This document shows, in pieces, positions 3,520 through 35,257 of a DNA stretch of 64,000 nucleotides (its first letter is position 1; each line of letters starts with the position of its first letter). The notes beneath the pieces are model-generated. The model was given only the letters and a program-made list of their open reading frames with translations. It was not told where the DNA came from and searched no databases. Both the position numbers and the translations under genes were made by a program. The stretch is from positions 1-64,000 of IMG/VR virus record IMGVR_UViG_3300036832_000330; one strand, written 5' to 3'. Source of the stretch: a virus.

Positions 3520-4610
3520 TTCTTGGCTCTGACGAGCCGCCGACTGGAGGGGCGGGGACCAGGCTCCTCGCGGCGAATGCCCTTCACTACGTGGTTCTGG
3601 ATAGCCTCCTGCAACTTCTGCTGCAATGTCAAGTCCCATCTGGCCTGTTCCTCCAGGGCGGCGCGGCCATGCCAGGACTCGGTGTCCAGGTGGTAGTAGC
3701 TGCCCTTGATCGAGAACACCTCGTAAAGAACGCCCAGCGTGACCAACTCCTTGCCCAGGTCATACGATCCGGGTGAGATGCCGGCGCTGTTGTGGTCGAA
3801 GTAGAAGTCGAACACGGCCACCCGCTCGGGCGGGAAGCTCTTGTTCTTCTTGGTCAGGGCCTTGACGGTGATGCCCACCTTGCGCTGGTTCTTGCGGTCT
3901 CCCTCTGTCAGCCAGTCGTCGCGCTTCAACTCCAGCCGGCTGGTGAACCAGTAGTTCTTGGCTCGGCCCCCTGGGGTGGTGCGGGGATCACCGAACAGGA
4001 CGCCGATCTTCTCCCGCCACTGGTTGACGACGAAGCAGGTCACGGCCCGGTCGTCCTCCACCAGGGATCGCTTCATGGCGGTGTAGCTCTTCCTGAAGAA
4101 CTTGCCGATCAGGCGCGCCGCCAGGCCCACCTGGGTGTCGTCCATGGTGCCCTCGCCCTCACTTATCGGTGATAGGGCGGGCATGGAGTCGATGACCAGA
4201 ACATCGGCGGTTCTACTCTCCAGAACCATGATGGCGGCGTTGCACGCCTCCTCCAGGATGTTGGTCTGCATGACCAGGATCTTGTCGGTGTCGCAGCCCA
4301 GGTCACGCGCCCAGCCCGGTACGAACTCCTCAGCCGCCACCCAGAAGGTGACGTGGTCAGGGTTGAGGGCCTGCTGGACGGCGATGGTCTTCAGGATGAT
4401 GGTGGTCTTGCCTGAACTCTCGTCGCCGTATAGCTCGTGGAAGGCGTTGGTCTGCCAGCCGCCCCCCAGGGCCATGTCCAGGCTGTAGCTCCCGGTGGAG
4501 ATACGAGGCAGGTCGGAGTAGCGGATCTGGCTGCCCCAGACCACGGTCTCGGGACCGTACTCCTTGTTGATCTCGGCCATCACCGTGGTGATGGTGTCGG
4601 TCTTGGTCAT
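3516..4610 (-). CDS. recA: RecA/UvsX-type recombinase
   Basis: ATP-dependent strand-exchange protein. The Walker A motif is GDESSGKT (residues 62-69), Walker B is VLVIDSMPAL (about 136-145), and NQWREKIGVLFGDPRTTPGG matches the L2-loop region of RecA proteins. 364 residues, normal for phage RecA/UvsX. The C-terminus ends RPSSRRLVRAKK, a tail seen on unrelated proteins here. The ATG at 4610 overlaps the upstream stop (ATGA), and its stop overlaps the nuclease start, giving a coupled recombination cassette with the resolvase-type and Cas4-like nucleases. Confidence 0.95.
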   Translation of the reverse strand: MTKTDTITTVMAEINKEYGPETVVWGSQIRYSDLPRISTGSYSLDMALGGGWQTNAFHELYGDESSGKTTIILKTIAVQQALNPDHVTFWVAAEEFVPGWARDLGCDTDKILVMQTNILEEACNAAIMVLESRTADVLVIDSMPALSPISEGEGTMDDTQVGLAARLIGKFFRKSYTAMKRSLVEDDRAVTCFVVNQWREKIGVLFGDPRTTPGGRAKNYWFTSRLELKRDDWLTEGDRKNQRKVGITVKALTKKNKSFPPERVAVFDFYFDHNSAGISPGSYDLGKELVTLGVLYEVFSIKGSYYHLDTESWHGRAALEEQARWDLTLQQKLQEAIQNHVVKGIRREEPGPRPSSRRLVRAKK

Positions 4611-4927
4611 CGTGGGCGATCCCTCCTGCCCTCTCTGCGCCGATCATGGAACAGGTCTTCCCAGGCACTCATCTCGTGCTCGCCGGCCTGGGGACTCCAA
4701 CGCATGGCGTCGGGGCCAAGCTCGGTGTCGACCGGATCATGTGGCTCCAGGCGACGCTCGGTCCAGGACCGGACTGCGTTTGAAGGCTCGTAGTGGGGTT
4801 CCTGCGCCTGAGTGCCTCGCTGCGCGGCCCAGGCCGCAGCCTGTTGGCGCGCTGCCCGTTCACCGTGAATCCGGTGGATAGGCACGCCCCGGCGCTGAGC
4901 TTCCTCCTGTAGACCTTCGCGGGCCAC
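4607..4927 (-). CDS. hypothetical protein with LFHDRR motif
   Basis: 106 residues, Gln/Ala/Arg-rich, without recognisable domains. The C-terminus is WEDLFHDRRREGRRDRPR, one of at least five copies in this window of the short LFHDRR.EGRR peptide. The start is a GTG at 4927 directly after the Lys-rich gene; the stop overlaps the recA ATG (ATGA). The role is unknown; the position upstream of recA could mean a RecA accessory factor, but nothing in the sequence proves this. Confidence 0.6.
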   Translation of the reverse strand: MAREGLQEEAQRRGVPIHRIHGERAARQQAAAWAAQRGTQAQEPHYEPSNAVRSWTERRLEPHDPVDTELGPDAMRWSPQAGEHEMSAWEDLFHDRRREGRRDRPR

Positions 4928-4929
4928 AA

Positions 4930-5055
4930 CTACTTCTTCTTGGCTGCGGTCTTCTTGGCCGGGGCCTTCTTAACCTCTTCCTTCTTCTCCTCGCCCTTCT
5001 TACCGAACGGCGCGGCCCGCTTGCCGCCGAATGGCTCCTTCTTAGTGGTTGCCAT
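4930..5055 (-). CDS. small histone-tail-like lysine-rich protein
   Basis: 41 residues starting MATTKKEPFGGKRAAPFGKK and continuing as Lys/Glu/Ala sequence to AKKTAAKKK. The composition resembles the basic tails of histone H1-like and HupB-like proteins, so it may bind DNA without sequence preference. A good Shine-Dalgarno sequence (GAGAGGAA) precedes the ATG at 5055. The start overlaps the end of the winged-helix gene by 14 bases. Most of it is probably disordered. Confidence 0.6.
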   Translation of the reverse strand: MATTKKEPFGGKRAAPFGKKGEEKKEEVKKAPAKKTAAKKK

Positions 5056-5446
5056 TGTGATTCCTCTCTTGGTGTTGTTCGTAGAAGGCGGTCAGTAGTT
5101 GTGTCGAGTGATGGAGCAGGCTGTTCGGCTCGATGGCTTCATACGAGGTACTGGGGTCTGTGTTCCTGACCCGATGGTTGAACTCGACGGTCAGGTCGTC
5201 GTAGTCACCGTCCTCCACCTTCCGTATGCCTTTCTTGGTGATCCAGTACACCTGGCCTGCCTTTCCCTTGGACATGAGCCGCTGATGCGGTCTCTTGGTC
5301 ACGGTGTTGAAGCGGACCTCAAGGAGACCCTTTCTTCGTAACTCGGGGATTCGCCTGTGAGCTTCCTCTCTATCAAGGCCAGATTTAACTGCGGCTTCCT
5401 CGTGGGTCATGCCTGGATCCCATGGCCTTGCGAGATACCGCCGCAT
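5042..5446 (-). CDS. winged-helix-like DNA-binding protein
   Basis: 134 residues. The N-terminal half (MRRYLARPWDPGMTHEEAA, then L.REEAHRRIPELRRKGLLEV) has the helix-turn-helix and beta-wing pattern of MarR/phage winged-helix proteins, followed by VYWITKKGIRKVE, typical of a wing strand. The C-terminal part is polar and helical. The ATG at 5446 overlaps the previous stop (TGATG). It may be a regulator or a replication accessory protein. Confidence 0.6.
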   Translation of the reverse strand: MRRYLARPWDPGMTHEEAAVKSGLDREEAHRRIPELRRKGLLEVRFNTVTKRPHQRLMSKGKAGQVYWITKKGIRKVEDGDYDDLTVEFNHRVRNTDPSTSYEAIEPNSLLHHSTQLLTAFYEQHQERNHNGNH

Positions 5447-5595
5447 CACTTCCTCCGGTTTTTGAACTCTCTCATGTTGTGTGTGTCCTTGTCCTTGGGC
5501 TTGCCCTTGGCGATGGTGGACTCGGCCTTCTTCTTGGTTGCCTCGTTGCTCTTCTTGGCCGCGGCGGCTCTGGCATCGCCCTGTCGCCCAGGCAT
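5446..5595 (-). CDS. small basic protein
   Basis: 49 residues starting MPGRQGDARAAAAKKSNEA, very rich in Lys and Ala, ending MREFKNRRK. TGATG overlaps at both ends show that it is translated with its neighbours. It may bind nucleic acid through its charge. One of three consecutive short Lys-rich proteins in this segment (with 4930-5055 and 5595-5846). Confidence 0.55.
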   Translation of the reverse strand: MPGRQGDARAAAAKKSNEATKKKAESTIAKGKPKDKDTHNMREFKNRRK

Positions 5596-5846
5596 CACTT
5601 CCCTCGGTTTTCGGGCTTGTTGTAGCGGCTCCTGGTGGGCTTGGCTTCGCCGGTCTTGGGCATGGGCTTGCGCCCAGACTCACGGGTCTCAGCCGCCTTC
5701 TCGCCCATGGCGTGACGCCTGGCCTTGCCCTGGGCCTGGGCGTTGGAGATGGCAGCCGCTTTGCTCTTGGAAAAACCCTTCTCCTTCAGGGCCTCGTATG
5801 AGTCGGCTTTTTTGATGGATGGTCCGGGTTCTTTTCCTCCTGGCAT
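5595..5846 (-). CDS. small basic protein, SKSKAAAISNAQA type
   Basis: 83 residues starting MPGGKEPGPSIKKADSYEAL. The block SIKKADSYEALKEKGFSKSK and then AAAISNAQAQG resembles short conserved actinobacterial proteins (SIK...YE.LR.KG.SKEKAARI.NA) of unknown function; I believe this family is listed as DUF7218 but cannot check. A strong ribosome binding site (AGGAGG) precedes the ATG. The C-terminal half is basic and low-complexity. Confidence 0.65.
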   Translation of the reverse strand: MPGGKEPGPSIKKADSYEALKEKGFSKSKAAAISNAQAQGKARRHAMGEKAAETRESGRKPMPKTGEAKPTRSRYNKPENRGK

Positions 5847-5854
5847 GGTTCCTC

Positions 5855-6361
5855 CTATCTGACGTTGCTCCAACTGAAGTCGGTGCCACTGAGGCTGGCA
5901 TCTACACCGAACTGACTGGCCCCTGACGAGTTGTCGCTGCGGGCGAACTGGACCGGCCCGGATGACTTCATGCCGATGGAGTTGAGCAGGGTGCCTGACT
6001 GCTCAAACAGGTCACCGTTGTACCCGCAATCAACGCAGAGAGGAGCCGCCTCAAACTGGCCTGACTTGCGCCGGAAGAAGCTGGACCCATTGCAGCGGGG
6101 GCACCGTCCCGACGTGCCCAGGCTGTTGGGGGCCTTCTCCACGTATCCCTGGCGGTTGACCCGGTGCCAATTATCGTCGGTGTCGCTCCCCGGCTGGTCC
6201 CACTCCGTCACCTCCTGGCGGGGGCCAGTCGGGGGGTACTGGGGTTGCCACCGGACGGCCTTCTGGGGGTAGCCCGTGGTCTGGCTGGGAGGGGGCGGGG
6301 GCGCAGCCGGCCTCCGGGCGACGCCCCCCAGTGCCCGCTCCCACCACCCAACGTCGCTCAT
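5855..6361 (-). CDS. zinc-ribbon protein with proline-rich N-terminus
   Basis: 168 residues. Starts MSDVGWWERALGG, then a proline-rich linker (PAAPPPPPSQ). A central zinc ribbon, CPRCNG....C.DCGYNG (about residues 87-113), is followed by a Ser/Gly-rich C-terminus. The N-terminal W-W-x-R-A-L-G pattern followed by proline is one I associate with actinophage hypothetical proteins. Function unknown. The ATG overlaps the upstream stop as ATGA. Confidence 0.65.
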   Translation of the reverse strand: MSDVGWWERALGGVARRPAAPPPPPSQTTGYPQKAVRWQPQYPPTGPRQEVTEWDQPGSDTDDNWHRVNRQGYVEKAPNSLGTSGRCPRCNGSSFFRRKSGQFEAAPLCVDCGYNGDLFEQSGTLLNSIGMKSSGPVQFARSDNSSGASQFGVDASLSGTDFSWSNVR

Positions 6362-6537
6362 TGCCTCATCTCACTTAGCTCGTCCAGTTCCTCGCGCCGA
6401 TCATGGAAGAGGTCCGGGGCGATCTTGTGGGCGCTGAAGCGGTAGCACTTGCACTCCAGGCGTCCGACCATGCCGGAACAGCCACGGGTGTTGTGCTGCT
6501 CCATGGGATGACCGCATTTGGTGCAGGTCTGGCTCAT
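6358..6537 (-). CDS. small zinc protein with LFHDRR motif
   Basis: 59 residues starting MSQTCTKCGHPMEQHNTRGC. It has C-x2-C, a His-rich loop and two later cysteines (LECKCYRF), a likely zinc site. The C-terminus is DLFHDRREELDELSEMRQ, a variant of the recurring LFHDRREEGRR peptide. ATGA overlap with the polymerase stop. Unknown function; the tail may be a docking peptide, by inference from its recurrence. Confidence 0.65.
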   Translation of the reverse strand: MSQTCTKCGHPMEQHNTRGCSGMVGRLECKCYRFSAHKIAPDLFHDRREELDELSEMRQ

Positions 6538-8558
6538 TTGGCCTCGCTCCAGTTCTTTCCGACACCGATGTTGACCTCCAGGGGTACGTCCAGCACCGGG
6601 CGACCCTCCAGGCGGATGTTCTCCATGGCCTCCTTGATAAACGGTATGGCGTCGAGGGCCTCCCGCTCGTCGCACTCGATCACGAACTCATCGTGGATCT
6701 GAAGCACCAGGGCGGCGTGGAACTCCCGCAGGGCCTCATGGACCCTGACGATGGCGATCTTGGCGATGTCGGCGGCACTGCCCTGGATGGGGTGGTTGAC
6801 GGCCTGGCGCTCCGCATAGCTGCGGTCCTTGGGGTTGCCGGATGCGATGTCCTTGAGCCGGCGCTTGCGCCCGTACAGGGTCTCGACGTAACCGTTCTGC
6901 AAGCAGGACCGCTTGGTCTTGGCCCCCCACTGGCGCACGCCGGGGTACGCCTGGTGCCAGGCGGTGTAGACCTTCTCGGCCTCCCGCAGGGGGATGCCCG
7001 ACAGATCCACCACCCGGCCAGCGCGGCCCTCAAAGGCGAAGTTGAAGTTGCAGTTCTTGGCGATGGCCCGCTGCTCGACGGCGACCTTGTCCTGTGGCAC
7101 CTTGTAGATCAGGCTGGCTGTCTGGGTGTGCAGATCCAGGCCATGGGTGTAGGCGTAGAGGAGCAGCCGGTCCTTGGTCTGGTGGGCCAGGATGCGTAGC
7201 TCGATCTGGCTGTAGTCGGCCACGATCAGGACACGGCCCGGTGGTGCCACGAACAGCCGGCGGATCAGGGTGGCCTCGACGGTCTCCTTATACCTGGCCG
7301 GGATGTTCTGGAGGTTGGGGGCGCTGCACGAGAGGCGACCGGTGCGGGCCACGGCCTGGTTGAAGCTGGCCCGGATGCGGCTGTCCTCATCGATGTGGGG
7401 CATGAACCCGACGACGTAGGTGGACAGCAGCTTGTTCACGTCCTTGTACTCCAGGAGCCGGCGGGGTTCCTGGTGGCGCTTCGCCAGGGTCTTGAGAGCG
7501 TTGGCGGCGGTGGAACGCTGGCCGGTCTCGGTGATGAAGCCGCAGGGCAGGCGCAGTTCGTCGTAGAGCCAGCGACCCAGTTGCTGGGTGGAGTTCAGGT
7601 TGATCTCGTGGCCCACCATGGCCTGGATGTCGTCCCTGATCTCGTCGCGCTGGCGCTCCAGCTTGGGCCGTAGCTCCTGGAACCCCGCCATATCGACGTA
7701 GGCCCCCTGCTGGCGCATCTGGAGTAGTACCCGAAGCACAGCCATCTCCAGGCTGAACAGCGCGCCCAGCTTGGGCTTGTCCTCCAGGACGCCGTGGAGC
7801 TTCCACCACAGCATCCAGGCCATCTTGGCGTCGACAATCGAGTACCTCATGGCTCGCCGCCACTCCACCTTGTACGCCTCCTCACCGAGTTTCTCGGCGT
7901 AGGTGAACCCGATGTAGTGCTGAGCAAGAAAGCCCAGGTTGTACGCCTTGAGGTTCTCATTGATCAGAAAAATCATGGTCATCACGTCGGCATACGGAGG
8001 TGGTGGTATTTCGCCGTAGTACTTGGCAATCGAGAGCAGATCAAAGCCCACGTTCTGGTTGATCTTGCGCCGGTCGGAGAAGAACAGGGGCTTCAGGGCG
8101 GCGAACACCTCGCTGCGGTGTAGCTGTTGGCGTCGGTCAGGGTGTCCCATGGGTATGACATGGGACACTCCCGGACCAGCGAGGGAAAGACACCAGACTT
8201 CGTTGGTCCGGGCGTCCAGAGCCGGCTTATCCTTGTCAGCCGCCTTGCGGCACTCGTCGGAGCAGTAGGTGCGTCGTCGGGGTGGGATGGGCCGGCGACA
8301 GGACAGGCAGGGGGTGGACTGCTCGCTGTAGCGCGACAGCACCCGGCGCTCGCTCTGGAGCATGCGGACCTGCCGGCCCCCACGGGTCTCCACGTCGAAG
8401 GCGAACTCAGAAAAACCGGAGTAGATCGAGACCACGGCTTCTAGCTCGACCATGGTGCGAATGGTCTTGATGGGGCTGCCAGGGGTGGGGGAAGGGGACC
8501 GGTGGCGGGTCCGATCCCCTTCCCGTTCCGACACGGCAGCGGGTCTTACCGGCACCAC
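6534..8558 (-). CDS. DNA polymerase, family A, with 3'-5' exonuclease and zinc-knuckle insertion
   Basis: Replicative polymerase of the phage. Exonuclease motifs: FAFDVET (residues 53-58 or so), NQNVGFDLL and YSIVDAKMAW. Polymerase motif A is VADYSQIELRILAH, motif C is LVLQIHDEFVIE. Motif B (O-helix) is RAIAKNCNFNFAFEG, where the usual Tyr-Gly after NFG.. is Phe-Glu. Between the DVET and DARTNEVWCL parts of the exonuclease there is a C84-x2-C87....C99-x3-C103 zinc knuckle that this family normally lacks. The start is uncertain: GTG 8558, GTG 8534 or ATG 8453; the longer forms keep an N-terminal strand expected before DVET. No 5'-3' exonuclease domain. Confidence 0.95.
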   Translation of the reverse strand: MVPVRPAAVSEREGDRTRHRSPSPTPGSPIKTIRTMVELEAVVSIYSGFSEFAFDVETRGGRQVRMLQSERRVLSRYSEQSTPCLSCRRPIPPRRRTYCSDECRKAADKDKPALDARTNEVWCLSLAGPGVSHVIPMGHPDRRQQLHRSEVFAALKPLFFSDRRKINQNVGFDLLSIAKYYGEIPPPPYADVMTMIFLINENLKAYNLGFLAQHYIGFTYAEKLGEEAYKVEWRRAMRYSIVDAKMAWMLWWKLHGVLEDKPKLGALFSLEMAVLRVLLQMRQQGAYVDMAGFQELRPKLERQRDEIRDDIQAMVGHEINLNSTQQLGRWLYDELRLPCGFITETGQRSTAANALKTLAKRHQEPRRLLEYKDVNKLLSTYVVGFMPHIDEDSRIRASFNQAVARTGRLSCSAPNLQNIPARYKETVEATLIRRLFVAPPGRVLIVADYSQIELRILAHQTKDRLLLYAYTHGLDLHTQTASLIYKVPQDKVAVEQRAIAKNCNFNFAFEGRAGRVVDLSGIPLREAEKVYTAWHQAYPGVRQWGAKTKRSCLQNGYVETLYGRKRRLKDIASGNPKDRSYAERQAVNHPIQGSAADIAKIAIVRVHEALREFHAALVLQIHDEFVIECDEREALDAIPFIKEAMENIRLEGRPVLDVPLEVNIGVGKNWSEAK

Positions 8559-8569
8559 CGTTCGGACAC

Positions 8570-10524: not shown

Positions 10525-10554
10525 GTCAGTAAGGGTAACTGGGGGGTGTGACCG

Positions 10555-10911
10555 TTAAGAGGGCGCTCGGGGATCACCTCCCCTGTCATGGGCGTTGCCG
10601 ACGACGTACCAGGGGCGTCCGTTCTCGTCGGCCACGGCCAGCAGCCGCTCTGTGGCGCGGTTGTGGCTCATACGATCCATGAAGGCGATCACGATGTTGG
10701 GGTCACGCCATTCGTAGACCCGGCGGTGTCGGAGGTACTTGAACTGCTCCACCTCAAACTGGAGGTCGACCAGGCTGCCGTCGTCCTGGATGATGATGGT
10801 CTCGCCCCAGTGACGGGCCTGGGTGTTCAGCCCCTCCAGGATCACTCGCAGGAGCAGGGTGTCGCTGGTCAGCCGGCTGCCACAAAGCAGGTACTGGGGG
10901 CCGTCCTTCAA
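10555..10911 (-). CDS. possible SLOG-fold protein
   Basis: 118 residues starting with TTG (TTGA overlap) and reading LLCGSR.....LL..ILEGLNTQA...GETIIIQDDGSLVDLQFE and later NIVIAFMDRMSHNRATERLL.VADENGRPWYVV. The glycine-rich start, central strands and GT-like end resemble small phage SLOG (YspA/DprA-like) proteins that bind nucleotides. Confidence is moderate because the GG motif of the classic family is weak. Confidence 0.5.
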   Translation of the reverse strand: MKDGPQYLLCGSRLTSDTLLLRVILEGLNTQARHWGETIIIQDDGSLVDLQFEVEQFKYLRHRRVYEWRDPNIVIAFMDRMSHNRATERLLAVADENGRPWYVVGNAHDRGGDPRAPS

Positions 10912-11564
10912 GAACGACCTGAAGTCGCTCGTCGTACCCTTCTGCCGTTACCGTTGTTGTTACGACGGGGTGTGGGTGGGGGAGGAGGCGAGGGACGATG
11001 TCGATTACCCACCCGGACAAGTCTTATGAGCCTTGGACCCTCAGTCTTGGGTTGGTTGCCAACTAGTCTCACGAATGCATGCCCTTGATCGGTCGCAAGT
11101 TTCGCTAGTGCTAGGTACGCATCGCAGCGCACCTTTACGGCGTCGTACGCCTTGTGGGCCTCACCTTTTTGGAATCGATCCGCTGTTCGGAAGTCTTCCG
11201 GTGTTACTACGTCGTACCGTACCTTCTCGTACTTGCTGATCGAGATGGGAAGACGTTTGACTTCATCCCAATCGAGTTCGACCTCACCAGACCCCCACCC
11301 ATAAAAGATCTTGTTTCCAAGTTTATTTTCCTGGCCTTCGATCTGATTGACATCCCGTTCGACCTGCTTGGTTATCGCTGACGTGTCGTTCGGATAGTTC
11401 TGTCGCCCAACGGCGATGGCACGGTTTTTCCAGTCTTTGTCAGTGGTTTTGTAGCGGTCAGGCCGATCCGCACGCAAAGCCGCCCGGATGCGGCTGCGAT
11501 AGGTGTCATCCAGTTCATCGTAGGTTACGACGGTGACAGGCTCGTCTGAGGGTCTTCTGGGCAT
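10908..11564 (-). CDS. hypothetical protein with basic C-terminus
   Basis: 218 residues starting MPRRPSDEPVTVVTYDELD. An N-terminal helical domain contains DWKNRAIAVGRQNYPNDTSA, a middle part with GWGSGEVELDWDEV is followed by a predicted helix, and the C-terminus is GPRLIRLVRVGN followed by Pro/Asn/Arg-rich sequence. RLIRLVRVGN resembles the RRLVR tails seen elsewhere. Codon usage is less GC-biased than in neighbours. An inverted repeat CGGAAG-T-CTTCCG (11,188-11,200) lies within it. Function unknown. Confidence 0.6.
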   Translation of the reverse strand: MPRRPSDEPVTVVTYDELDDTYRSRIRAALRADRPDRYKTTDKDWKNRAIAVGRQNYPNDTSAITKQVERDVNQIEGQENKLGNKIFYGWGSGEVELDWDEVKRLPISISKYEKVRYDVVTPEDFRTADRFQKGEAHKAYDAVKVRCDAYLALAKLATDQGHAFVRLVGNQPKTEGPRLIRLVRVGNRHRPSPPPPPTPRRNNNGNGRRVRRATSGRS

Positions 11565-11567
11565 TTT

Positions 11568-12467
11568 TTACTTCACCTCCGTGATGTTTTTTAACTGCTC
11601 CAGTTCGTCTGGCTCAAGCAGATCCACGATCTCATCCGGGATGGGAGCGCCGATCATCGGGGCGAGTGTCTGAAGACTTTCCTGGATCTTGGTGGCCCAT
11701 ACTCGTACACGTTCTTGGCGCTGGCTCTGTATGTCTTCTGCTTCGTCAAGGCTGAGGCTGCCAGACTGGACGCGCTCTGCAAGATCGTCTGACAATTGAG
11801 ACATACGCTCTTCATCGTGTACTCTCTCCAGAGCTTCCTCCAGGGTTAGGCTCTTCGACTCCACAAGGGCGAGCAGTTTTGGATCAAGGCCGTCGAGTTC
11901 CTCCTTGCGCTGCTTGATTTTGTTAGCCGTTTTGTACGCCTCATCCAGGGCCATTCCCCCGGCTAGCACCTTGTCGCTCAACTCTCTAGCGTGATCGAGG
12001 ACGACACCAGCTTGGTGCATCGCTTTCAACCAACCGCTATCGGAAGATCTTCCGATAGCGGTTTTGGTGCCCCGCCTCCAACGCCTGTTGACTCGTTTCC
12101 CTTCCGCCTCCTCACCAATGGCGACGGCCATGGCCTTCACGCCTTCGCTGAGGGTTCGACGGCGGGCGTTGGCGTCGATGATGCACCGGACAGGGTCACC
12201 CTGCTCAACTTTCCACTGGGGTTCCAGGCCAACCAGGGCGCATGCTGCCACTCGGCCAATCCCGTCCAAGCCAAGACCGTTGGGGTCCATGACACATGGC
12301 TCACGTTGCCCGCCAACCTCCATCGAGTCAGCAATGACGCGGATTGCGTCTTCGGAGTGTGGAGGGAAGGACTCGGCCAGGGGGTGCCATCTTCCATTCC
12401 AGGTCACCTGTCCGTTCGATGGGGTTTCTGTGGGCTGTGACCGTCTGATAGTCCGTGCTGGTGCCAT
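11568..12467 (-). CDS. ParB/sulfiredoxin-like nuclease-domain protein
   Basis: 299 residues. After a short N-terminus comes HPLAESFPPHSEDAIRVIA....GGQREPCVMDPNGLGLDGIGRV, the ParB N-terminal box pattern (hP..f...........sI...G...P..v......ldG..R). Then a helix-rich C-terminal half with repeated SLTLEEA/SLSLDEA segments. It may partition or regulate by DNA binding. The ATG at 12,467 is preceded by TATATAGGTGGGC (a Shine-Dalgarno and possible -10). It carries a perfect 32-bp palindrome (12,032-12,063). Confidence 0.7.
   Translation of the reverse strand: MAPARTIRRSQPTETPSNGQVTWNGRWHPLAESFPPHSEDAIRVIADSMEVGGQREPCVMDPNGLGLDGIGRVAACALVGLEPQWKVEQGDPVRCIIDANARRRTLSEGVKAMAVAIGEEAEGKRVNRRWRRGTKTAIGRSSDSGWLKAMHQAGVVLDHARELSDKVLAGGMALDEAYKTANKIKQRKEELDGLDPKLLALVESKSLTLEEALERVHDEERMSQLSDDLAERVQSGSLSLDEAEDIQSQRQERVRVWATKIQESLQTLAPMIGAPIPDEIVDLLEPDELEQLKNITEVK
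12032..12063. repeat. perfect 32-bp palindrome
   Basis: The sequence reads the same on both strands over 32 bases with no spacer, centred on AGATCT within a GGAAGATCTTCC core. It lies in the coding sequence of the ParB-like gene and encodes TAIGRSSDSGW. A shorter palindrome with the same 12-base core occurs at 36,919-36,932, and a related arrangement CGGAAG-T-CTTCCG at 11,188-11,200. It could be a protein-binding site (possibly for the ParB-like protein) or a strong hairpin. Confidence 0.8.
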
Positions 12468-12538: not shown

Positions 12539-14095
12539 TCAGACAGCACTCTCTCGGAGCCACTCCGACAGGGACTTGAGATCCAGGGTGACGCTGCCCC
12601 TGGGGTTGATGCCCTTGCCATCGATCACCGCCGCCGCCACCTTGGCCTTCTGGCCCAGCAGCTTGTGTTGGTATTCCTCGATGGTGCCCGTGGCCTGGAT
12701 CGTCAACAGCGTGACCTGGGGAAACTGACTGGACAGGCGCACGATGCGGGCCTGGCGTTGAGCAAAAGCCCCTGCTGACCAGGGGAGGTCGAAGCTGATC
12801 AGGAAGTTGGCGACGGGCAGGTCGAGGCCCACGCCCCCGGCGTCGGAGGACAGGAACAACCGGGTGTCGGGGTCGGTGGCGAAGGTCTGCTTGGCCCGGT
12901 CGCGCCGGGTGACCGACACCGCCCCGGTGAATAGCACGCTCTTGGTCATGCCCTTGGTGGCTTCGGCTACCAGATCGAGCATGTCCTTGAAGAATGAAAA
13001 AAATACGATCTTGTTACGCGGATCCGCCTCCAATATTTCCTGCATCAGTTCCAGGGCGGCGTCCAGCTTGGGGGCCTTGGGCAGCTTCTCCAGCCGGCCC
13101 GCTTCGTGTAGCTCCTGGGCGTATTCGCTGCCGGCCCGGTTGCCAGGTAGTACCCCCCGATAGTGGGCGGCTGAGATGCGGAGCAGGTCCGGGTGATCAC
13201 ACAGCATTCGCATGCAGACCAGCTTGCTCATGATCCGGCCACGGGCCTCGCTCTGCTCCTCGCCCCGGTAGAACCCCGACAGGGAGAAGTTGCCCCAGGC
13301 GTTGAGGGCCTCAGCCAGTTCGGCCTGGAGGTCATGCACCATGCGCCTATACAGGACCGCGCCAGCGGTGTCAAGGTCGACCAGTAGGGGGGCCGGGGTG
13401 ACCACCGCCGGCAATTGATCGGCTACCTCCGCTCGGGTACGGCGCACCATGTGGTCGGACAGCAGCCGGTGAAGGGTGGGCAGGTTGCGATAGGACCGGA
13501 CCCGGCCCCAGTGGTCGCGCTTGACGAAGGCGGCATCGAAGTTCTTGAAGTGGCCCAGGACGGTGGAGTCCACCCACTGCATGATGGAGAAGACCTCTTC
13601 GGCCCGGTTCTCGATGGGCTGGCCGGTCAGCGCCCATCGGTAGGTGGCGGTCAGCCGCTTGATCTTCTTGGACCGCTGAGGCTTGAAGTTCTTGAACCAC
13701 GTTGCTTCGTCGGCCACGATGAAGTCACGCGGCAGCCGGCTCACGATCTCCCAGTCGTTCGTCATCTGCTCCGGGTTGAGGATGCAGTACTCACCCTGGC
13801 CCTGCTTGTAGCGGAGGTATTGGGCCTGGCGCTGTGCGGCGGTGCCGTTGACGACGATGACGTTGGCCTCTGGGGCGAACTCCTCGATCATGCGCTTCCA
13901 CTGGAGCTTGATCGAGGCTGGGCAGATGATCAGGCCCCCGCCGATCTTGCCGGCCTCGATCAGTTCCTCGATGGCGGCGATGGTGATGACGGTCTTCCCT
14001 AACCCCATCTCATAGGCCACCAGCAGGCTCTTCATGTCGAGCATGCGCTCGACGGCCTGGGTCTGGAATGGGTAGAGGGTGCCCTTGAAGCTCAC
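12539..14095 (-). CDS. SNF2-family superfamily II helicase/ATPase
   Basis: 518 residues. GTLYPFQTQAVERML is followed by Walker A (MGLGKT), motif Ia (ICPASIKLQWKRM), motif II (VADEATWFKN), motif III (WALTGQPIENR), motif V (SSDAGGVGLDLP) and motif VI (FAQRQARIVRL). Translocates on double-stranded DNA using ATP; in phages it is placed with replication and recombination genes. The start is a GTG at 14,095 overlapping the primase stop (GTGA). Length is normal. Confidence 0.9.
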   Translation of the reverse strand: MSFKGTLYPFQTQAVERMLDMKSLLVAYEMGLGKTVITIAAIEELIEAGKIGGGLIICPASIKLQWKRMIEEFAPEANVIVVNGTAAQRQAQYLRYKQGQGEYCILNPEQMTNDWEIVSRLPRDFIVADEATWFKNFKPQRSKKIKRLTATYRWALTGQPIENRAEEVFSIMQWVDSTVLGHFKNFDAAFVKRDHWGRVRSYRNLPTLHRLLSDHMVRRTRAEVADQLPAVVTPAPLLVDLDTAGAVLYRRMVHDLQAELAEALNAWGNFSLSGFYRGEEQSEARGRIMSKLVCMRMLCDHPDLLRISAAHYRGVLPGNRAGSEYAQELHEAGRLEKLPKAPKLDAALELMQEILEADPRNKIVFFSFFKDMLDLVAEATKGMTKSVLFTGAVSVTRRDRAKQTFATDPDTRLFLSSDAGGVGLDLPVANFLISFDLPWSAGAFAQRQARIVRLSSQFPQVTLLTIQATGTIEEYQHKLLGQKAKVAAAVIDGKGINPRGSVTLDLKSLSEWLRESAV

Positions 14096-14970
14096 CAGAA
14101 TGCCGCCAGGGTGGCTTTCTCCAGGCCCCTGTGAACTGCCAGCGGCGATAGCTCCCCTGGATCCTTGCCGTTCAGACCCCGGTAGTTGAACATCGTCATA
14201 GGGATCCGATGGTGCCACTTCTCTATCTGGAGGCGTCGGGTCTCCTTCCGACCGGCGGCGTCATCGTCCAGGGCCAGCACCAGGCGGTGCAGCCGCTCCA
14301 CCAGGAGCTTCATCTGCATGTCGGACACCTGGCAGCCGAAGGCGGCGAGCGCCGGCACGCCCAGGGTGTCCAGGTAGGCCACGTCCAGGGGCGACTCCAC
14401 CAAGACCGCCTGGTCAGAGCGCAGCACGTCGAGGCCAAAGAGGGTCTTGCCCTTCTTGATCCCCGGCGGGTGGTTGCGGATCTCGGCCCCCTTGGACTGC
14501 CAGCCCCACTTATCCCCAGTTGGGGACAAGATGGGGATAACCCAGGCAGCCTCCTCGCAGTCCCAGCGAAGCTGGAAGCGGTCGCACACCTCGGGGGTCA
14601 GGTGCCGACGCTCCAGGGCACGGGGCGGGGGCGGGCCGAACTCCTCCAGCCTGCTCTCCACTACCAGGCCGATAGGCGGCTCCCAAGGGGCCTCGTCGTA
14701 GCTGCCCAGGTCTACGTCGAAGCGCCGGATCATCTGGCGGGCCTCCCACACGCCCACCCCGGCCATGTCCATGATGAGCCGGGTCAGGCTGCCGGCGTAC
14801 TCGCACGAGAAGCAGTGGTGCGCCCCTGAGTGGCGGTTGATCGACCAGTGGTCAGGCCGGCGCTCCAGTTCCCCGGTGCGCTTCTCGTGCATGGGACAGC
14901 GGGCCTGTACCTCCGCGCCCAGGGTGCGGATGTCCTCGACGCCGATGTGTTCCAGTAGCTCCTCGATCAC
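14092..14970 (-). CDS. DnaG-type primase (CHC2 zinc finger and TOPRIM)
   Basis: 292 residues. CHC2 zinc site: C25-x2-H28 and C53-x2-C56. TOPRIM: AVLVESPLDVAYLDTLG, then LVLALDDDAAGRK. Synthesises RNA primers for the phage fork; the short C-terminus lacks a helicase-binding domain. The GTG start overlaps the helicase gene stop (GTGA). An inverted repeat TTATCCCCA/TGGGGATAA lies at 14,510-14,540. Confidence 0.9.
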   Translation of the reverse strand: MIEELLEHIGVEDIRTLGAEVQARCPMHEKRTGELERRPDHWSINRHSGAHHCFSCEYAGSLTRLIMDMAGVGVWEARQMIRRFDVDLGSYDEAPWEPPIGLVVESRLEEFGPPPPRALERRHLTPEVCDRFQLRWDCEEAAWVIPILSPTGDKWGWQSKGAEIRNHPPGIKKGKTLFGLDVLRSDQAVLVESPLDVAYLDTLGVPALAAFGCQVSDMQMKLLVERLHRLVLALDDDAAGRKETRRLQIEKWHHRIPMTMFNYRGLNGKDPGELSPLAVHRGLEKATLAAFW

Positions 14971-18614: not shown

Positions 18615-18662
18615 TCCTATGTCCAGCCCGCCGGCTCTCTCGGAGTCGGACAGGTAACCGCA

Positions 18663-18692: not shown

Positions 18693-18693
18693 G

Positions 18694-18727
18694 TGCGAAT
18701 GAGGGAGGTCTTGATCAATGCGAATGA
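18694..18727. repeat. direct repeat TGCGAATGA (two copies)
   Basis: The 9-base sequence TGCGAATGA occurs at 18,694-18,702 and 18,719-18,727, 25 bases apart, immediately upstream of the -35 of the left promoter. The spacing and position suit a regulator-binding pair. Confidence 0.5.
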
Positions 18728-18757
18728 TGTAAATCACCGCTTGCTGGGGCTTGCCTT

Positions 18758-18788
18758 CTACAGGCGTCTACAGCGCCGCCTACAGGCG
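18758..18788. repeat. CTACAGGCG iteron-like repeats (three copies)
   Basis: CTACAGGCG (18,758-18,766), CTACAGCGC (18,768-18,776) and CTACAGGCG (18,780-18,788) lie in tandem about ten bases apart, roughly one DNA turn. Similar CTACAG words recur at 56,174-56,211 where plus- and minus-strand blocks converge. They may be replication iterons or operator repeats. Confidence 0.5.
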
Positions 18789-18861
18789 CGTTAATCATTA
18801 GGTCAGTCCCACCCGCCGGGAAAAAACCTAGCCCTTTCTGCCCGCCCTCGCAAGGGCCGCT

Positions 18862-19048
18862 TTTTCCACAGGTTGTCCCCTTCCTAGGCTGGAGGGGGCA
18901 TGACCTACGTAGACGATCCTAGCCTCGCTGACCAGGACGAAGATGACCGCGCCGACGACAGCGAGGGTCTCTCCGATGACCTGGAGCAATACGCCCCGCC
19001 GGTCTTAGACCCGGCCCAGCAGGGCTTTGTGGATCACCTTGTGGATAA
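18862..19048. other. DnaA-box-like sites near the divergent region
   Basis: TTTTCCACA (18,862-18,870, plus strand) fits TTWTNCACA. TTATCCACA, the perfect box, lies on the minus strand at 19,040-19,048, with a one-mismatch TGATCCACA at 19,029-19,037; the last two are inside the terminase gene. Together with the nearby CTACAGGCG repeats this is a candidate replication origin. An AT-rich unwinding element is not obvious. Confidence 0.4.
18885..18890 (+). promoter_or_regulatory. putative late promoter -10 (TAGGCT) of terL
   Basis: TAGGCT followed by GGAGGGGGC and the terL ATG. It belongs to the TANNCT family seen before several other genes in this window. The purine-rich run after it is the ribosome binding site. 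No -35 consensus at 16-18 bases. Confidence 0.45.
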
Positions 19049-20546
19049 GGTGTGGAGCTTTACGGTGATCTTCTCCGGGGTGGAGATGTTCCCCTACCAG
19101 GCAGCCCTGGGCCGGCGCATCATTGAGAGCGTCATCAGCGGAGATGGGGCCACCATCACGGGGGAACTCAGCCGTCAGAGCGGAAAGACAGAGGTGGTGG
19201 CGAACGTCGCCAGCAGTCTCATGATTCTGCTACCGCGGTTAGCGGAGATGTTCCCAGAGTTTGAGCCGTTGCAGAAGTTCCGCACGGGGTTGATGGTGGG
19301 ATGCTTCGCCCCGGTTGAGCAGCAGGTCGAGACCCTCTTCGGTCGGATCGTGGATCGCCTGACCTCTGAGCGTGCCCTGGAGATGCTGGAAGACCCGGAG
19401 ATCGATGATCAGGTCAAGCCTGGCTCTCGGAAGGTGCGCCTGAAAAAATGCCAGTCGTTTTGCGCCATGCAGACCGCCAACCCTCGCGCCAAGATCGAGT
19501 CCAAGTCTTACCATGTGATTTTTGTGGACGAGTCCCAGTCGGTGGACGAGTACGTTCTCAATAAGAGCATCACGCCTATGGGGGCATTTTACCTGGCGAC
19601 TATGGTCATGACCGGCACCCCAGACATCGTGAAGGGCGTGTTTTATAAGACAATCCAGCACAACCGTCGCCAGGAGCTACGCCGGGGCGGGAAGAAGAAC
19701 CACTTCCGCTTCGACTGGCACTACTGCGCCCGATTTAATAAAAACTATGCCGCCTACATCCGGGGCGAGGCCATGCGGATCGGGGAGGACAGCGATGAGT
19801 TCCGGCTCAACTACCGGCTGGAGTGGCTTCTGGAGCGGGGCATGCTCATCACTGAGACTCGTATGGACGAGCTTGGTGACCCCACCATGCCCATCGTCCA
19901 GGCGTACTGGAGATCGCCCCTGGTGGCGGGCATCGACTTCGCCAGACGCATGGACTCCACCGTGGTCACCATCGTCTGGGTGGACTGGGACCGTCCTGAT
20001 GAACTGGGCCTCTACGACCACCGGATCCTGAACTGGCTGGAGATGCACGGGGAGGAGTGGGAAGACCAGTACTTCAGGATCGTGGACTTCCTCTCCAACT
20101 ACTCGGTGGTGGCGTGCGGTGTCGACGCTCAAGGAGTTGGTGACGTAGCTGCTGACCGGCTGAAGCGACTGTTGCCGCGTATCCAGGTGGAACCACTGTC
20201 GTCACAGATCGCGGATCAGTCAGCCAGGTGGAAGCACCTTCAGCAGCTACTGCAACGAGGTTTGATGTCCTGGCCGGCGCATCCCAGGGCCAAGCGGACC
20301 AAGAACTGGCGGCGTTTTCGCCAGCAGATGGTGGATGTGGAGAAGAGCTACAAGGGTGCCCACCTCGTGGTGGCTGCGCCGAACGAGGCCGGCGTGCATG
20401 ACGACTACGTCGACTCACTGGCCTGCGCCACCATCATGTCCCAGGTGATGATGGTGCCTGAGGTTGAGATGCAGGCGACGCCCTGGGCGTCGTCGGTTCG
20501 GCGGTCGAGGGCTGCTCGTCCTCGCCAGCGGCGTCGGACAGCATAG
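18900..20546 (+). CDS. terL: terminase large subunit
   Basis: 548 residues. Walker A is SRQSGKTE (91-98), Walker B is HVIFVDESQSVDEY (about 207), coupling motif TGTP, and the C-terminal RNase H-like nuclease begins LVAGIDFARRMDSTVV with a later HDDYVDSLA. Packages DNA into the prohead through the portal using ATP. The first 40 residues are acidic and the end is Arg-rich. First gene of the plus-strand morphogenesis block; no small terminase subunit was recognised beside it. Confidence 0.93.
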   Translation: MTYVDDPSLADQDEDDRADDSEGLSDDLEQYAPPVLDPAQQGFVDHLVDKVWSFTVIFSGVEMFPYQAALGRRIIESVISGDGATITGELSRQSGKTEVVANVASSLMILLPRLAEMFPEFEPLQKFRTGLMVGCFAPVEQQVETLFGRIVDRLTSERALEMLEDPEIDDQVKPGSRKVRLKKCQSFCAMQTANPRAKIESKSYHVIFVDESQSVDEYVLNKSITPMGAFYLATMVMTGTPDIVKGVFYKTIQHNRRQELRRGGKKNHFRFDWHYCARFNKNYAAYIRGEAMRIGEDSDEFRLNYRLEWLLERGMLITETRMDELGDPTMPIVQAYWRSPLVAGIDFARRMDSTVVTIVWVDWDRPDELGLYDHRILNWLEMHGEEWEDQYFRIVDFLSNYSVVACGVDAQGVGDVAADRLKRLLPRIQVEPLSSQIADQSARWKHLQQLLQRGLMSWPAHPRAKRTKNWRRFRQQMVDVEKSYKGAHLVVAAPNEAGVHDDYVDSLACATIMSQVMMVPEVEMQATPWASSVRRSRAARPRQRRRTA

Positions 20547-20547
20547 A

Positions 20548-20562
20548 GGCAGCGTTGCTGCC
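20548..20562 (+). terminator. weak hairpin after terL
   Basis: GGCAGC-GTT-GCTGCC, a 6-bp stem directly after the terL stop codon. No T-run follows, so it may be a weak terminator or processing site ahead of the promoter at 20,660. Confidence 0.35.
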
Positions 20563-20626
20563 GGTGGCCCGCTGCATCGAGGTGCGGTGCGCCCACTGGT
20601 CTGAGATCGACACGTTCCTAGGGTAC

Positions 20627-20667
20627 TGGGTGGTCAGGGGGCGCGCTGGCACCGGACCTAGCCTCAT
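20627..20667 (+). promoter_or_regulatory. phage promoter element of the head operon
   Basis: GGGTGGTCAGGGGG, a short spacer, then CACCGGACCTAGCCT. The same words occur in the divergent region at 36,385-36,424. TAGCCT is the likely -10, with transcription starting near 20,670 and a 25-30 base leader carrying AGGAGGAG before the next ATG (20,697). The block between terL and this gene (about 150 bases) holds nothing else I can identify. Confidence 0.5.
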
Positions 20668-20696
20668 ATACACAGCCCTCGACAGGAGGAGAAGAC

Positions 20697-21098
20697 ATGT
20701 CTCTTGGCCCTGTGCCGATGTTCCCGGAGCGGGGACGGTACCAGTACGACCAGACCGTGGCGAACAACGCGCCCGGTGGACGGGGACCGCTCCGCTTTGA
20801 AGAGGGCCTGGGCACCGACACCGACATCCCCAACGACTTCCAGCGGGGGATGATCGAGTTCATGGTGTCGGCTCCTGGCCGCATCAACCATGTCGACCCC
20901 AACGTCCAGTTCAAGATGCCTGAGGAGACCCTGGCTGAGCGGTCCCACGTCGGCTCTGCGGCCTGGATCGACGCTCCGACGATGCTCGGGGAGTTCGCTC
21001 GGGGAAGCTTCACGGATTCTGCGGAAGTGACCTACGAGGAGGTGCAACGCTCGGGCGGCATCCAGAAGCGGCGTGCCCCTGAGGTTGTCATCGACTGA
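20697..21098 (+). CDS. hypothetical head-region protein
   Basis: 133 residues starting MSLGPVPMFPERGRYQYDQT. No domain recognised. It is preceded by an excellent Shine-Dalgarno (AGGAGGAG) and by the phage promoter element, so it is the first gene of the head operon. Its location after terL suggests a packaging or virion role. Confidence 0.65.
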   Translation: MSLGPVPMFPERGRYQYDQTVANNAPGGRGPLRFEEGLGTDTDIPNDFQRGMIEFMVSAPGRINHVDPNVQFKMPEETLAERSHVGSAAWIDAPTMLGEFARGSFTDSAEVTYEEVQRSGGIQKRRAPEVVID

Positions 21099-21099
21099 G

Positions 21100-21312
21100 A
21101 TGGCCTCGATAGGTGGTGGCCGGGAGTTAGACGAGCATCGGAAGGTCCGCATCCTCGCCATGGCGGTGCAGCACCACGGTGCTGATCCCTCGACGGTGAA
21201 GCAGATGCTGGACGATCCGAACTTTGGCATGGACCCCAGTGTCAGCGACAGGGTCCATGCCCATGCCATGGCGATGGCTGCGAACACCAGGGGCGGTCGA
21301 CATGAGCGGTGA
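21100..21312 (+). CDS. hypothetical protein
   Basis: 70 residues starting MASIGGGRELDEHRKVRILA, helical. The segment HHGADPSTVKQMLDDPNF looks like a small helical-bundle protein. The start lies one base after the previous stop; an in-frame start 27 bases earlier overlaps that gene and is less likely. Function unknown. Confidence 0.6.
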   Translation: MASIGGGRELDEHRKVRILAMAVQHHGADPSTVKQMLDDPNFGMDPSVSDRVHAHAMAMAANTRGGRHER

Positions 21313-21502
21313 ACCTGGCAGCTTTCGCCACAGTCTCAAGTGGGGCCTTCTCGGACTTGTTGGGAGGGCAGGAAGACCTCCTGCTGAACCTGGCTTCCTC
21401 CATGACGTTGGTCAGGGCATCAATGCGCTTCGCCACCCTGAGTACTTCCATGACCGGCGGGAAGAGGGCCGGCGAGAGGGACCAGCGAATGCCGCGCCGT
21501 GA
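21302..21502 (+). CDS. small protein with FHDRREEGRR motif
   Basis: 66 residues starting MSGEPGSFRHSLKWGLLGLV, then HPEYFHDRREEGRREGPANA. The hydrophobic stretch LKWGLLGLVG could be an amphipathic helix. Overlaps neighbours on both sides (ten and 14 bases). One of the recurring LFHDRR peptides; no enzyme motif. Confidence 0.6.
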   Translation: MSGEPGSFRHSLKWGLLGLVGRAGRPPAEPGFLHDVGQGINALRHPEYFHDRREEGRREGPANAAP

Positions 21503-22991
21503 CCCACCTCCACCGAAGGCCATCCCGGCAGCCACCCCGGAGATAGCGGAGCAGCAACAGCAAGGGCGCGCCGAATCCATCAAAGGCCCGCTGCGCTCCA
21601 ATAATCCCAGGGGTCGTAAGACCATCCGGGCCAGGTCTCAACACCCCACCCAGACCACGCCTCGCCCCCAGAGTGACTGGGAGAAGGAGCATTACGGGGG
21701 CGATCCCACCAGTGGCAGCGATCTGGAGCGGATGCGGGCCGGCGGTGGGCTGGCTACCGGTCGTCCCTCGCCCCGGATCCCCAAGCGCGTCAACGTGGCG
21801 AACGCGGTGCTGGTGGAGCGTGGTCTGGCTGACCCCGGTGACGTGGATCCGAACCAGGGCCGGCTGTTCGGTCACGCCGAGATGGGCAAGTTGACCAAGA
21901 CCGACAAGGAGATGGCTGAGCAGACCGGGGTGCCCTACCGTCGCCCCGCCGGCCAGGGCTGGATGACCGGGGTGGGCCGCACCAAGAGAGCGCCCTACGA
22001 CACCGCCGCGGAGGCACGGGCGGCTGGTGACACCAAGGCCGAAGCTGCTATCCATGCGCGCAAGGCTGAGGTAGGCCAGCAGGCCAAAGAGAAGGTGCGG
22101 GAGCCAGACACGGGGGAGCCGTCCCAGACCCCGGTTAGAACGGCCATGAGCAACCGTGCCCGGTACGAGTCTGATCGCCCCACTACTTGGTATGCCGGCG
22201 AGGCCACTCAGGCGGTCGAGCGGGAGGCCCTCAAGAGCGGCCTGGGTGGGCACCCCCAGGGGTTCAACATCATGCGGCGGGCCACGGCGCTACTCAGCCC
22301 CCAGAAGCCCTGGGACATGGGCCACCACCAGGACGACAACTACACCCAGCCGAACGTCGAGGTGGCTGGGCATCTGGTGCGGTTCCTCCGGGGTGAGCAG
22401 GCGCGACTGGGGGAGGAGTACGACCCGGACAAGGCAGCCAAAGAGTTCCGTATGCCAGGTGTGGGACACACAGAGGAGACCCCGAACTTGGTGCAGGGAC
22501 AGAGCTTGCCCATGAGGAAGGCGGTAGCTCGTCACCTGGACAAGCCCACCCACGAGGAGCCGAAGTTGGCGACTGAGGTGCAGAAGGTCCGTAACTTCGA
22601 CCCGGCCCTGGCGGCAGGGCATCGTGTTCGTTGGGCACGCCGTCAGGCGTTGCAGCGGTACACGTCGGACACCCATGACATCCGGGCTGCTGGCATCACC
22701 GGGCTGTACCAGAGCTTCGTCGGTTCTAACGCTCCTGGGGGCTACGAGTTCGCCGCCATGACCGGGCGACGTGGTGCCATGCGCCAGTCGGTACGGGCGC
22801 TCAAGGAGGGCCGTGATCCTCGCACCTCCTCCGAGTACCAGGAGAACGTCTGGGTGGGCAAGCGCGGCCCTAACCAGCCCAGGGTCCACAAGGGGCCGGG
22901 TGGCACAGGCCGACAGGTGCTGTTTGAGCAGAACAAGAAGACCGGCCAGGAGAAGCCGGCCCGGAGGGCATTACCGCCGAAGAAGAAGTGA
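21489..22991 (+). CDS. hypothetical virion-associated protein (500 residues)
   Basis: Starts MPRRDPPPPKAIPAATPEIA and has a long Pro/Arg/Gln-rich first third, then DPNQGRLFGHAEMGKLTKTD and a folded region: NVEVAGHLVRFLRGEQARLG, then KVRNFDPALAAGHRVRWARR and TSDTHDIRAAGI. The order (FL.G......, VRNF, T.DTH...A.G) recalls phage DUF7178-like proteins, but I am unsure. It ends in a Lys-rich tail (RRALPPKKK). Function unknown. Confidence 0.6.
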   Translation: MPRRDPPPPKAIPAATPEIAEQQQQGRAESIKGPLRSNNPRGRKTIRARSQHPTQTTPRPQSDWEKEHYGGDPTSGSDLERMRAGGGLATGRPSPRIPKRVNVANAVLVERGLADPGDVDPNQGRLFGHAEMGKLTKTDKEMAEQTGVPYRRPAGQGWMTGVGRTKRAPYDTAAEARAAGDTKAEAAIHARKAEVGQQAKEKVREPDTGEPSQTPVRTAMSNRARYESDRPTTWYAGEATQAVEREALKSGLGGHPQGFNIMRRATALLSPQKPWDMGHHQDDNYTQPNVEVAGHLVRFLRGEQARLGEEYDPDKAAKEFRMPGVGHTEETPNLVQGQSLPMRKAVARHLDKPTHEEPKLATEVQKVRNFDPALAAGHRVRWARRQALQRYTSDTHDIRAAGITGLYQSFVGSNAPGGYEFAAMTGRRGAMRQSVRALKEGRDPRTSSEYQENVWVGKRGPNQPRVHKGPGGTGRQVLFEQNKKTGQEKPARRALPPKKK

Positions 22992-22992
22992 G

Positions 22993-23040
22993 GTGGAGCA
23001 AGCCATGCCGGCTCTAGACCGGAAGCTCAAGGCATCATGA
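22993..23040 (+). CDS. putative micro-ORF (15 residues)
   Basis: VEQAMPALDRKLKAS from a GTG, or 11 residues from the ATG at 23,003. The TGA overlaps the next ATG (ATGA), the junction type used by the real genes around it, and together with 23,037-23,096 it fills an otherwise non-coding gap. No function can be inferred. Confidence 0.3.
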   Translation: MEQAMPALDRKLKAS

Positions 23041-23096
23041 CCGACTCCACCGCCGCCAGTGTACAGGGTGAACACAAGCATGTGGGAGCGCGTTGA
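23037..23096 (+). CDS. putative micro-ORF (19 residues)
   Basis: MTDSTAASVQGEHKHVGAR. Linked to the ORF before by ATGA and to the next gene by TGATG. It may simply couple ribosomes across the gap. Confidence 0.3.
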   Translation: MTDSTAASVQGEHKHVGAR

Positions 23097-23305
23097 TGGC
23101 TGAGATAAGTCCTCTGAGAACCAAGGGTGTGCCAGTCGAGTACATGGATCTCAACACCCTGTGGAACGACCGGCGTGACCCCCACGCCAACCCCTTGTCG
23201 TCCTCGCCCCGGCGTGAGTCGGCTCGTCCTGGACCCAGTGCCCTGGGTGGCCTGGTACACCAGATCTACCGTGGGACACCCTCCCACACGGTGGGCGATG
23301 AGTGA
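23096..23305 (+). CDS. small protein with LWNDRRDP motif
   Basis: 69 residues starting MAEISPLRTKGVPVEYMDLN; TLWNDRRDPHANPLS looks like a diverged form of the LFHDRREEG peptide. The C-terminus (LGGLVHQIYRGTPSHTVG) is short. TGATG overlap with the preceding micro-ORF and an 8-base overlap with the next gene. Unknown role; one of a cluster of tiny proteins directly before the portal gene. Confidence 0.55.
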   Translation: MAEISPLRTKGVPVEYMDLNTLWNDRRDPHANPLSSSPRRESARPGPSALGGLVHQIYRGTPSHTVGDE

Positions 23306-23513
23306 CCTGCCCGTCCTCCTGGCGACAGCCCCGCCCGTCATCCTGTCTCAGTCGATCCTGAGCCAGCGGGTGAAGCCGCGCCATGCCGCCATCGCTGCCC
23401 AGTCCGAGACCAAGCAACTCCAGAAGCAGGCAGCGCGCCGGCAGCTACAGCAGGCAGAGCGCCGCCGGCTGCCCCTGACCCAGCAGGACTTCTATCAGAG
23501 GCTGGCCCGGTGA
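23298..23513 (+). CDS. small Gln/Arg-rich helical protein
   Basis: 71 residues starting MSDLPVLLATAPPVILSQSI. The second half is a charged helix (KQLQKQAARRQLQQAERRRL). It may be a short coiled coil. Coupled to both neighbours by ATGAGTGA and GTGA overlaps. Function unknown. Confidence 0.6.
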   Translation: MSDLPVLLATAPPVILSQSILSQRVKPRHAAIAAQSETKQLQKQAARRQLQQAERRRLPLTQQDFYQRLAR

Positions 23514-23800
23514 ATGGTAACGGCGACGGCGATGGCAACGGGCACGGCAACCCTCGTCCTGACCTCTTCCATGACCGACGTGGTGAGGGCAAGCGCACCG
23601 CTCCCTACGCCTTGACGCCTATGGCGAAGCCCTCTATTGCCAAGGTCGTATACGGCGGTGACATGGGCGTCTTCCACAAGACCATCTTGTCTGCGCCTGG
23701 TGGGCGTAAGAGTTATGAGTCCTTGTTCCCGAAGTTCAGCGCAAAGGAGCATGGCCCCGGTACTTCCTTCGGCACTCACGTCCCTATCAGGTACTCATGA
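23510..23800 (+). CDS. LFHDRR-motif protein, paralogue of next gene
   Basis: 96 residues from a GTG (GTGA overlap): a Gly/Asn/Asp repeat, then PDLFHDRRGEGKRTAP and a C-terminal LFPKFSAKEHGPGTSF. The next gene has the same order (LFHDRREEGRRTAP, then LPKFNPSAS), so the two are duplicates. Unknown role; immediately upstream of portal, where internal head or packaging proteins often lie. Confidence 0.65.
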   Translation: MNGNGDGDGNGHGNPRPDLFHDRRGEGKRTAPYALTPMAKPSIAKVVYGGDMGVFHKTILSAPGGRKSYESLFPKFSAKEHGPGTSFGTHVPIRYS

Positions 23801-24042
23801 ACATCACCGGTGACGGTCTCTTCCATGACCGACGTGAAGAAGGACGCCGAACCGCGCCTTCGCACTTCTCCTACCCGCATGGAGGTGAGATGGGTGATCG
23901 TGAGGGGCAGATAGATCCATACCTCAGGAAGAACATCTACGCGCTCAAGGCGATGCCCCAACAGAGTGGATTGCCCAAGTTCAATCCTTCCGCTTCGCAG
24001 AAAGGAACGCCTCCTGAGGGTTACGCACCCTCGTACTCCTGA
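23797..24042 (+). CDS. LFHDRR-motif protein, paralogue of previous gene
   Basis: 81 residues starting MNITGDGLFHDRREEGRRTA. The motif is very near the N-terminus. The C-terminus (GLPKFNPSASQKGTPPEGYA) parallels that of the previous gene. ATGA at its start and TGATG at the portal start. Function unknown. Confidence 0.65.
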   Translation: MNITGDGLFHDRREEGRRTAPSHFSYPHGGEMGDREGQIDPYLRKNIYALKAMPQQSGLPKFNPSASQKGTPPEGYAPSYS

Positions 24043-35256: not shown

Positions 35257-35257
35257 G

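Follow-up and report, generated by a model that had tools for sequence, protein, structure and literature searches.

A short peptide, LFxDRRxEG[RK]RxxP, recurs on otherwise dissimilar small proteins in a clade that is a group of uncultured soil phages, and it is best read as a transplantable short linear docking peptide that would bind a receptor. It stands out by its strong conservation, its use at either protein end and its occurrence in more than 20 body families. The DNA analysed here (the window) comprises bases 1-64000 of a virus record of 93,647 bases (93.6 kb), which is distant kin of Streptomyces phage BRock, a myovirus (PMC7453282). The nearest cultured phages found were the Streptomyces phages BRock, Alone3, GiJojo, LuckySocke and pSt2308, with about 60% portal identity; related portals are encoded in 44 IMG/VR loci, most of which are far closer (80-96% identity). 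From the portal relatives alone we infer that the host of the tag-bearing clade would be an actinobacterium.

Tag copies in the window

Five LFHDRR-type copies were found in the window, where about 0.1 would be expected. Six-frame translation of the 93.6-kb record yielded FHDRR five times, against a mean of 0.075 and a maximum of 2 in 200 codon-block shuffles, and the peptide is therefore not a product of chance; for LFHDRR the figures are four copies and 0.005. A relative scan and a profile search found no further copy in the remaining 64-93.6 kb of the record. The five copies and a WNDRR variant lie where the initial annotation had placed them, except that the 11 residues of the first (LFHDRRREGRR) span 4622-4654 on the minus strand and do not begin at 4619. 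The features concerned are as follows (gene starts were picked mechanically, and body lengths are approximate).

4607-4927, minus: T1, small protein directly upstream of a RecA-like gene; C-terminal tag DLFHDRRREGRRDRPR at 4610-4657
6358-6537, minus: T2, 59-aa Cys-rich (zinc-ribbon-like) protein; C-terminal short tag DLFHDRREE at 6388-6414
18900-20546, plus: terminase large subunit (landmark)
21302-21502, plus: T3, 66-aa protein after the terminase; near-C-terminal tag EYFHDRREEGRREGPA at 21440-21487
21450-22991, plus: large late protein, 513 aa; ATG out of frame within the tag DNA of T3
23096-23305, plus: W, 69-aa conserved protein; core LWNDRRDPHANPLSSSPRR from 23159 on
23510-23800, plus: T4, 96-aa protein; Gly/Asn/Asp-rich N-terminus, then tag DLFHDRRGEGKRTAPY at 23561-23608
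23797-24042, plus: T5, 81-aa protein; tag GLFHDRREEGRRTAPS at 23815-23862; stop overlaps the portal start
24042-25796, plus: portal protein of the SPP1 type (landmark); 60% identity to BRock-like portals

A major capsid protein is recognisable in the record alongside the terminase and the portal, and the ORF at 26681-27481 occupies the position of the scaffold in BRock-like phages. Among the scanned head genes of the window, no prohead protease of a known family was recognised, only a zincin-like protein. Two collagen-like GxP-repeat proteins (29939-30583 and 32257-33216, both minus) lie in a minus-strand block separating the head and tail genes.

The bodies that carry the tag have diverse relationships (relatives are designated here by G and L numbers). 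The stop of T1 overlaps the RecA start (ATGA), and its body is related to tagged RecA-upstream proteins of G007 as well as to proteins in the head slot of G015 and G020, a single tagged body family thus spanning both the RecA-upstream slot and the terminase-portal head slot. T2 has tagged homologues in G002 and L065 and an untagged one in L234, and the homologues of T3 in G001 and L005 bear HHDRRVEGRR. The slot of the large late protein holds at least two dissimilar families across relatives: in L034/L035 it is filled by a protein of a different family, of about 500 residues, with the tag at its own N-terminus. The members of this slot that were scanned against Pfam, PHROGs and NCBIfam matched nothing. 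The T4 body has homologues of about 50% identity in L023/G017 and L008; for T5 no body homologue was found, the tag alone giving matches. T4 and T5 had been taken for clear paralogues, but this view lacks support, their bodies giving no match to each other beyond the tag at E 1e-3.

Conservation and modularity of the peptide

Across relatives the consensus is [LVIYF][FHYW]xDRRxEG[RK]RxxP, and the residue before it is usually D, often as RPD or NPRPD. The third residue varies (H, N, P, S, T, Y or W), while D4, R5, R6, E8, G9 and R11 are invariant in 35 of 35 distinct copies and P14 is present in 34 of the 35. With a profile of 16 columns, all full-length tags (core plus EGRRxxP) scored at least 36.5, against 12.8 for the top decoy among reversed proteins (1.37 Mb). 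Shorter tags, ending in DRREE or DRRGE, are carried by the Cys-rich T2 and its homologues and by RecA-upstream proteins in G007, and score 13-20 (6408, minus, in the window; G002 32356; G007).

That the bases vary while the peptide is kept, as first proposed, applies to the EGRRxxP half. There the codons are randomised, synonymous diversity over E8-P14 being equal to the codon-usage expectation, and the residues are invariant; therefore, selection acts on the peptide. The LFHD half does not follow this pattern as fully: synonymous diversity over L1-D4 is somewhat under the codon-usage expectation, with CAT at 19 of 23 His codons and CTC at 18 of 25, a DNA likeness that indicates probable common descent of the copies. 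Residues 2-3 are more alike within a genome (0.62) than between genomes (0.29; permutation P 0.0006), which would be expected if all copies in a phage fit one receptor, and gene conversion or shared ancestry could be an alternative source of this likeness.

Masking the tag separates the 42 tagged ORFs into 23 body families, among which no similarity was detected beyond the tag itself. C-terminal copies stop one residue past the proline (EGRRDRPx-stop), and N-proximal copies lie 5-20 aa from the start, behind Gly/Asn/Asp/Pro-rich linkers (NGDGDG/NPRP). Between 0 and 5 copies are present per record, and several relatives with a complete terminase-portal interval (e.g. L003, L007 and L020) have none, and the tag is therefore dispensable. 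It is absent from the whole of BRock and from the first 50 kb of Alone3, and a tblastn search of 50,697 phage records with the tag peptide returned nothing, a weak result given a query of 22 residues. Viral contigs were also scanned with DNA patterns covering part of codon space, and full-length tags were found in this clade only, to which L050, a short contig with the tag, presumably belongs. The other viral-contig pattern matches proved to be frame accidents, and the one match in a bacterial genome scan arose by chance.

The initial annotation had named background frequency elsewhere and absence from orthologues as observations against its reading. The frequency is far above background, and absence is seen in part: besides the T2 homologue in L234, orthologues of the large protein tagged in L035/L034 are untagged in L006/L039, an optional presence that is expected of an add-on tag. 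The proposal of a linear tag is upheld by the 23 unrelated bodies, the use of either terminus, the Gly/Asn/Asp-rich linkers, the selection at the peptide level and this optional presence.

Possible receptors and other explanations

We suppose that unrelated small accessory proteins gain the tag either at the C-terminus or, near the N-terminus, after a short flexible linker, and that it would bring them to a single common binding site, with one putative receptor per phage. Less certainly, this receptor would be a component of the head during its assembly (portal, scaffold or major capsid protein), and the tag would carry proteins into or onto the particle, much as the capsid-targeting sequence does for the internal proteins of T4. 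Docking to the head is a tentative conclusion, held at somewhat short of even confidence, and is favoured over a cytosolic hub because the terminase-portal interval holds most copies and also has W, with its similar core, at a fixed place. W was found in nearly every relative, with a core resembling the tag (LWNDRRDPH) kept in nearly all; its counterpart in L013/G009 reads FNDRRDPHANPLSS. This core is a possible relative of the tag, and W may be a fixed virion component on the same binding site as the tagged proteins. The likeness is short and could be due to chance, and the unrelated FFSDRR in the DNA polymerase calls for caution.

Two observations count against the head: T1 and T2 are encoded on the opposite strand, within the RecA/DNA polymerase cluster, a position that suggests expression together with the replication genes, and a second tag of the same phages (MSHxALNxxQF, below) fits capsid targeting better. 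The capsid targeting first suggested for the peptide is thus plausible from the terminase-portal location and weakened by these two points. A search for the receptor gene by presence and absence across relatives gave a lone candidate, which was dropped because it is confounded by kinship, and AlphaFold models were too poor for structure searches (pLDDT 53 for the tagged large protein and 42 for the zincin). With such a tag, sequence alone would suffice to recognise the accessory or effector proteins that uncultured phages encode, and cargo loading could be tested in an actinophage-like system.

It is possible, if rather doubtful, that the tag instead recruits proteins to a hub inside the infected cell (e.g. 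the replication/recombination machinery, the terminase-DNA machinery or a host protein), in which case the bodies would be host-takeover proteins or accessory factors brought to the phage DNA. T1, T2 and three copies in G007 adjoin RecA and DNA polymerase genes, and one body family has tagged members in the RecA cluster as well as in the head cluster. However, the late head cluster holds most copies, and no candidate hub was found. The bacterial sliding clamp, whose binding motif is QxxLF, was considered: motif and tag are alike in a hydrophobic-aromatic LF pair in a probably disordered tail, but the motif has no DRRxEGRR and the tag has essentially no Gln at position 1. The Gln four residues ahead of the aromatic is missing, only G009 (QIDLF) fitting among the listed copies, and the clamp motif was rejected.

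The codon evidence bears on an unlikely explanation by descent, in which the end of one ancestral gene was copied and joined to new bodies by recombination, with the shared stretch acting as a foothold for such exchange and docking nothing. The DNA likeness retained in the LFHD half, the bases that neighbouring copies within a genome have in common and the hypervariability of the slots all fit this explanation, but invariant residues over randomised E8-P14 codons require selection on the peptide, and DNA identity there is too low for a homology foothold.

Still less probable is a signal for processing or turnover, that is, a site cut by a phage protease or a signal for degradation by a host protease. 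The head cluster does contain a gene for a zincin-like protein with an HExGH motif (25793-26671), and a protease might recognise the invariant, Arg-rich core. However, the zincin was found in some tagged relatives only and also in the untagged contigs G012, G013 and L011, a degron at both protein ends would be unusual, and a tag placed exactly at the C-terminus leaves little for cleavage.

A DNA or RNA element, such as a ribosome-binding or regulatory site over gene starts, is very improbable: an ATG lies inside TTCCATGA with GAGGG ahead of the next start, the next ORF has its ATG within the tag DNA of T3 and C-terminal copies lie just ahead of the next gene, but N-proximal copies precede no gene start, H is swapped for N, P, S or T, second-half codons are randomised and the mean fold z is -0.02 relative to synonymous recodings. 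No signal of conserved pairing or synonymous constraint was seen (E8-P14 at expectation, L1-D4 somewhat below), and an RNA structural or regulatory element was rejected.

Other recurring tags and known systems

In 25 of its 26 distinct matches the second tag, [MV]S(H/Q/M)xAL[NS]xxQF, stands directly past the start codon, and reversed proteins have no match to it. It occurs on 24 proteins of at least 50 residues in 12 unrelated body families, which include GNAT (PF00583), ADP-ribosyltransferase (PF03496), a weaker ParB-like match and zincins (HExGH motif). Relatives that carry it are G001, G002, G005, G006 and G012, and a DNA-pattern scan with Ser as AGY found it in seven contigs. The loci in our record are as follows.

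34013-34654, minus: second-tag protein in the window
34654-35256, minus: second-tag protein in the window
66477, plus: second-tag locus in the same record
67256, plus: second-tag locus in the same record

By analogy this second tag is a strong candidate for a capsid-targeting-like sequence, and MSHxAL(N/S)xxQF may be the better candidate of the two for that role. A third peptide, C-terminal Q[GQ]xLF, recurs on dissimilar late-region proteins, mostly the large protein of the terminase-portal interval, at these sites and also in G013, G014, G020, G023 and L034.

34013-34654, minus: window
34415-35959: G004
10533-11948 and 81404-82108: G005
13511-14809: G010

One ADP-ribosyltransferase (G005 81470-82108, plus; PF03496, E 3.9e-9) bears both an N-terminal MSHxALSxxQF and a C-terminal QGKLF. 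The zincin-like protein at 25793-26671, between portal and scaffold, has an N-terminal PTQGKLFxxPKPxxxRYPRGYTPERM that is far better conserved than its body. The second tag and the recurring Q[GQ]xLF suggest that the clade might run a modular addressing code of at least two unrelated tags, perhaps with QGxLF as a third, each carried by many unrelated accessory proteins and directing them to a destination of its own in the particle or the infected cell; we consider such a code rather unlikely as yet, and it is the most promising lead.

Scanned tagged proteins gave nothing significant against Pfam, PHROGs and NCBIfam, only weak sub-threshold matches, and the tag peptide has no match among solved structures. 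Zincin, ADP-ribosyltransferase, GNAT and ParB-like domains are types found in phage polyvalent effectors (Iyer et al. 2017, PMC5512222). The same domains occur in these phages, some of them beside head genes. However, in polyvalent proteins the effectors are fused in one polypeptide, whereas here they are separate small proteins with short tags, mainly MSHxALNxxQF; the LFHDRR tag was not seen on the zincin, ADP-ribosyltransferase, GNAT or ParB-like proteins of these phages.

To our knowledge, few transplantable address tags occur in tailed phages, the capsid-targeting sequence (CTS) of T4 being the textbook case. The T4 CTS is N-terminal and is processed during maturation, and a 1996 paper by Mullaney and Black, listed in PMC9391042, mentions this processing in its title. 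The CTS of the T4 internal proteins and Alt resembles the present tag in being a short conserved peptide on hypervariable, unrelated small bodies that are accessory. The present tag differs in lying at the C-terminus or 5-20 residues inside the N-terminus, in its unrelated sequence and in having no known cleavage. Its position thus sets it apart from the T4 CTS as a class, although by analogy the two may work in a similar way.
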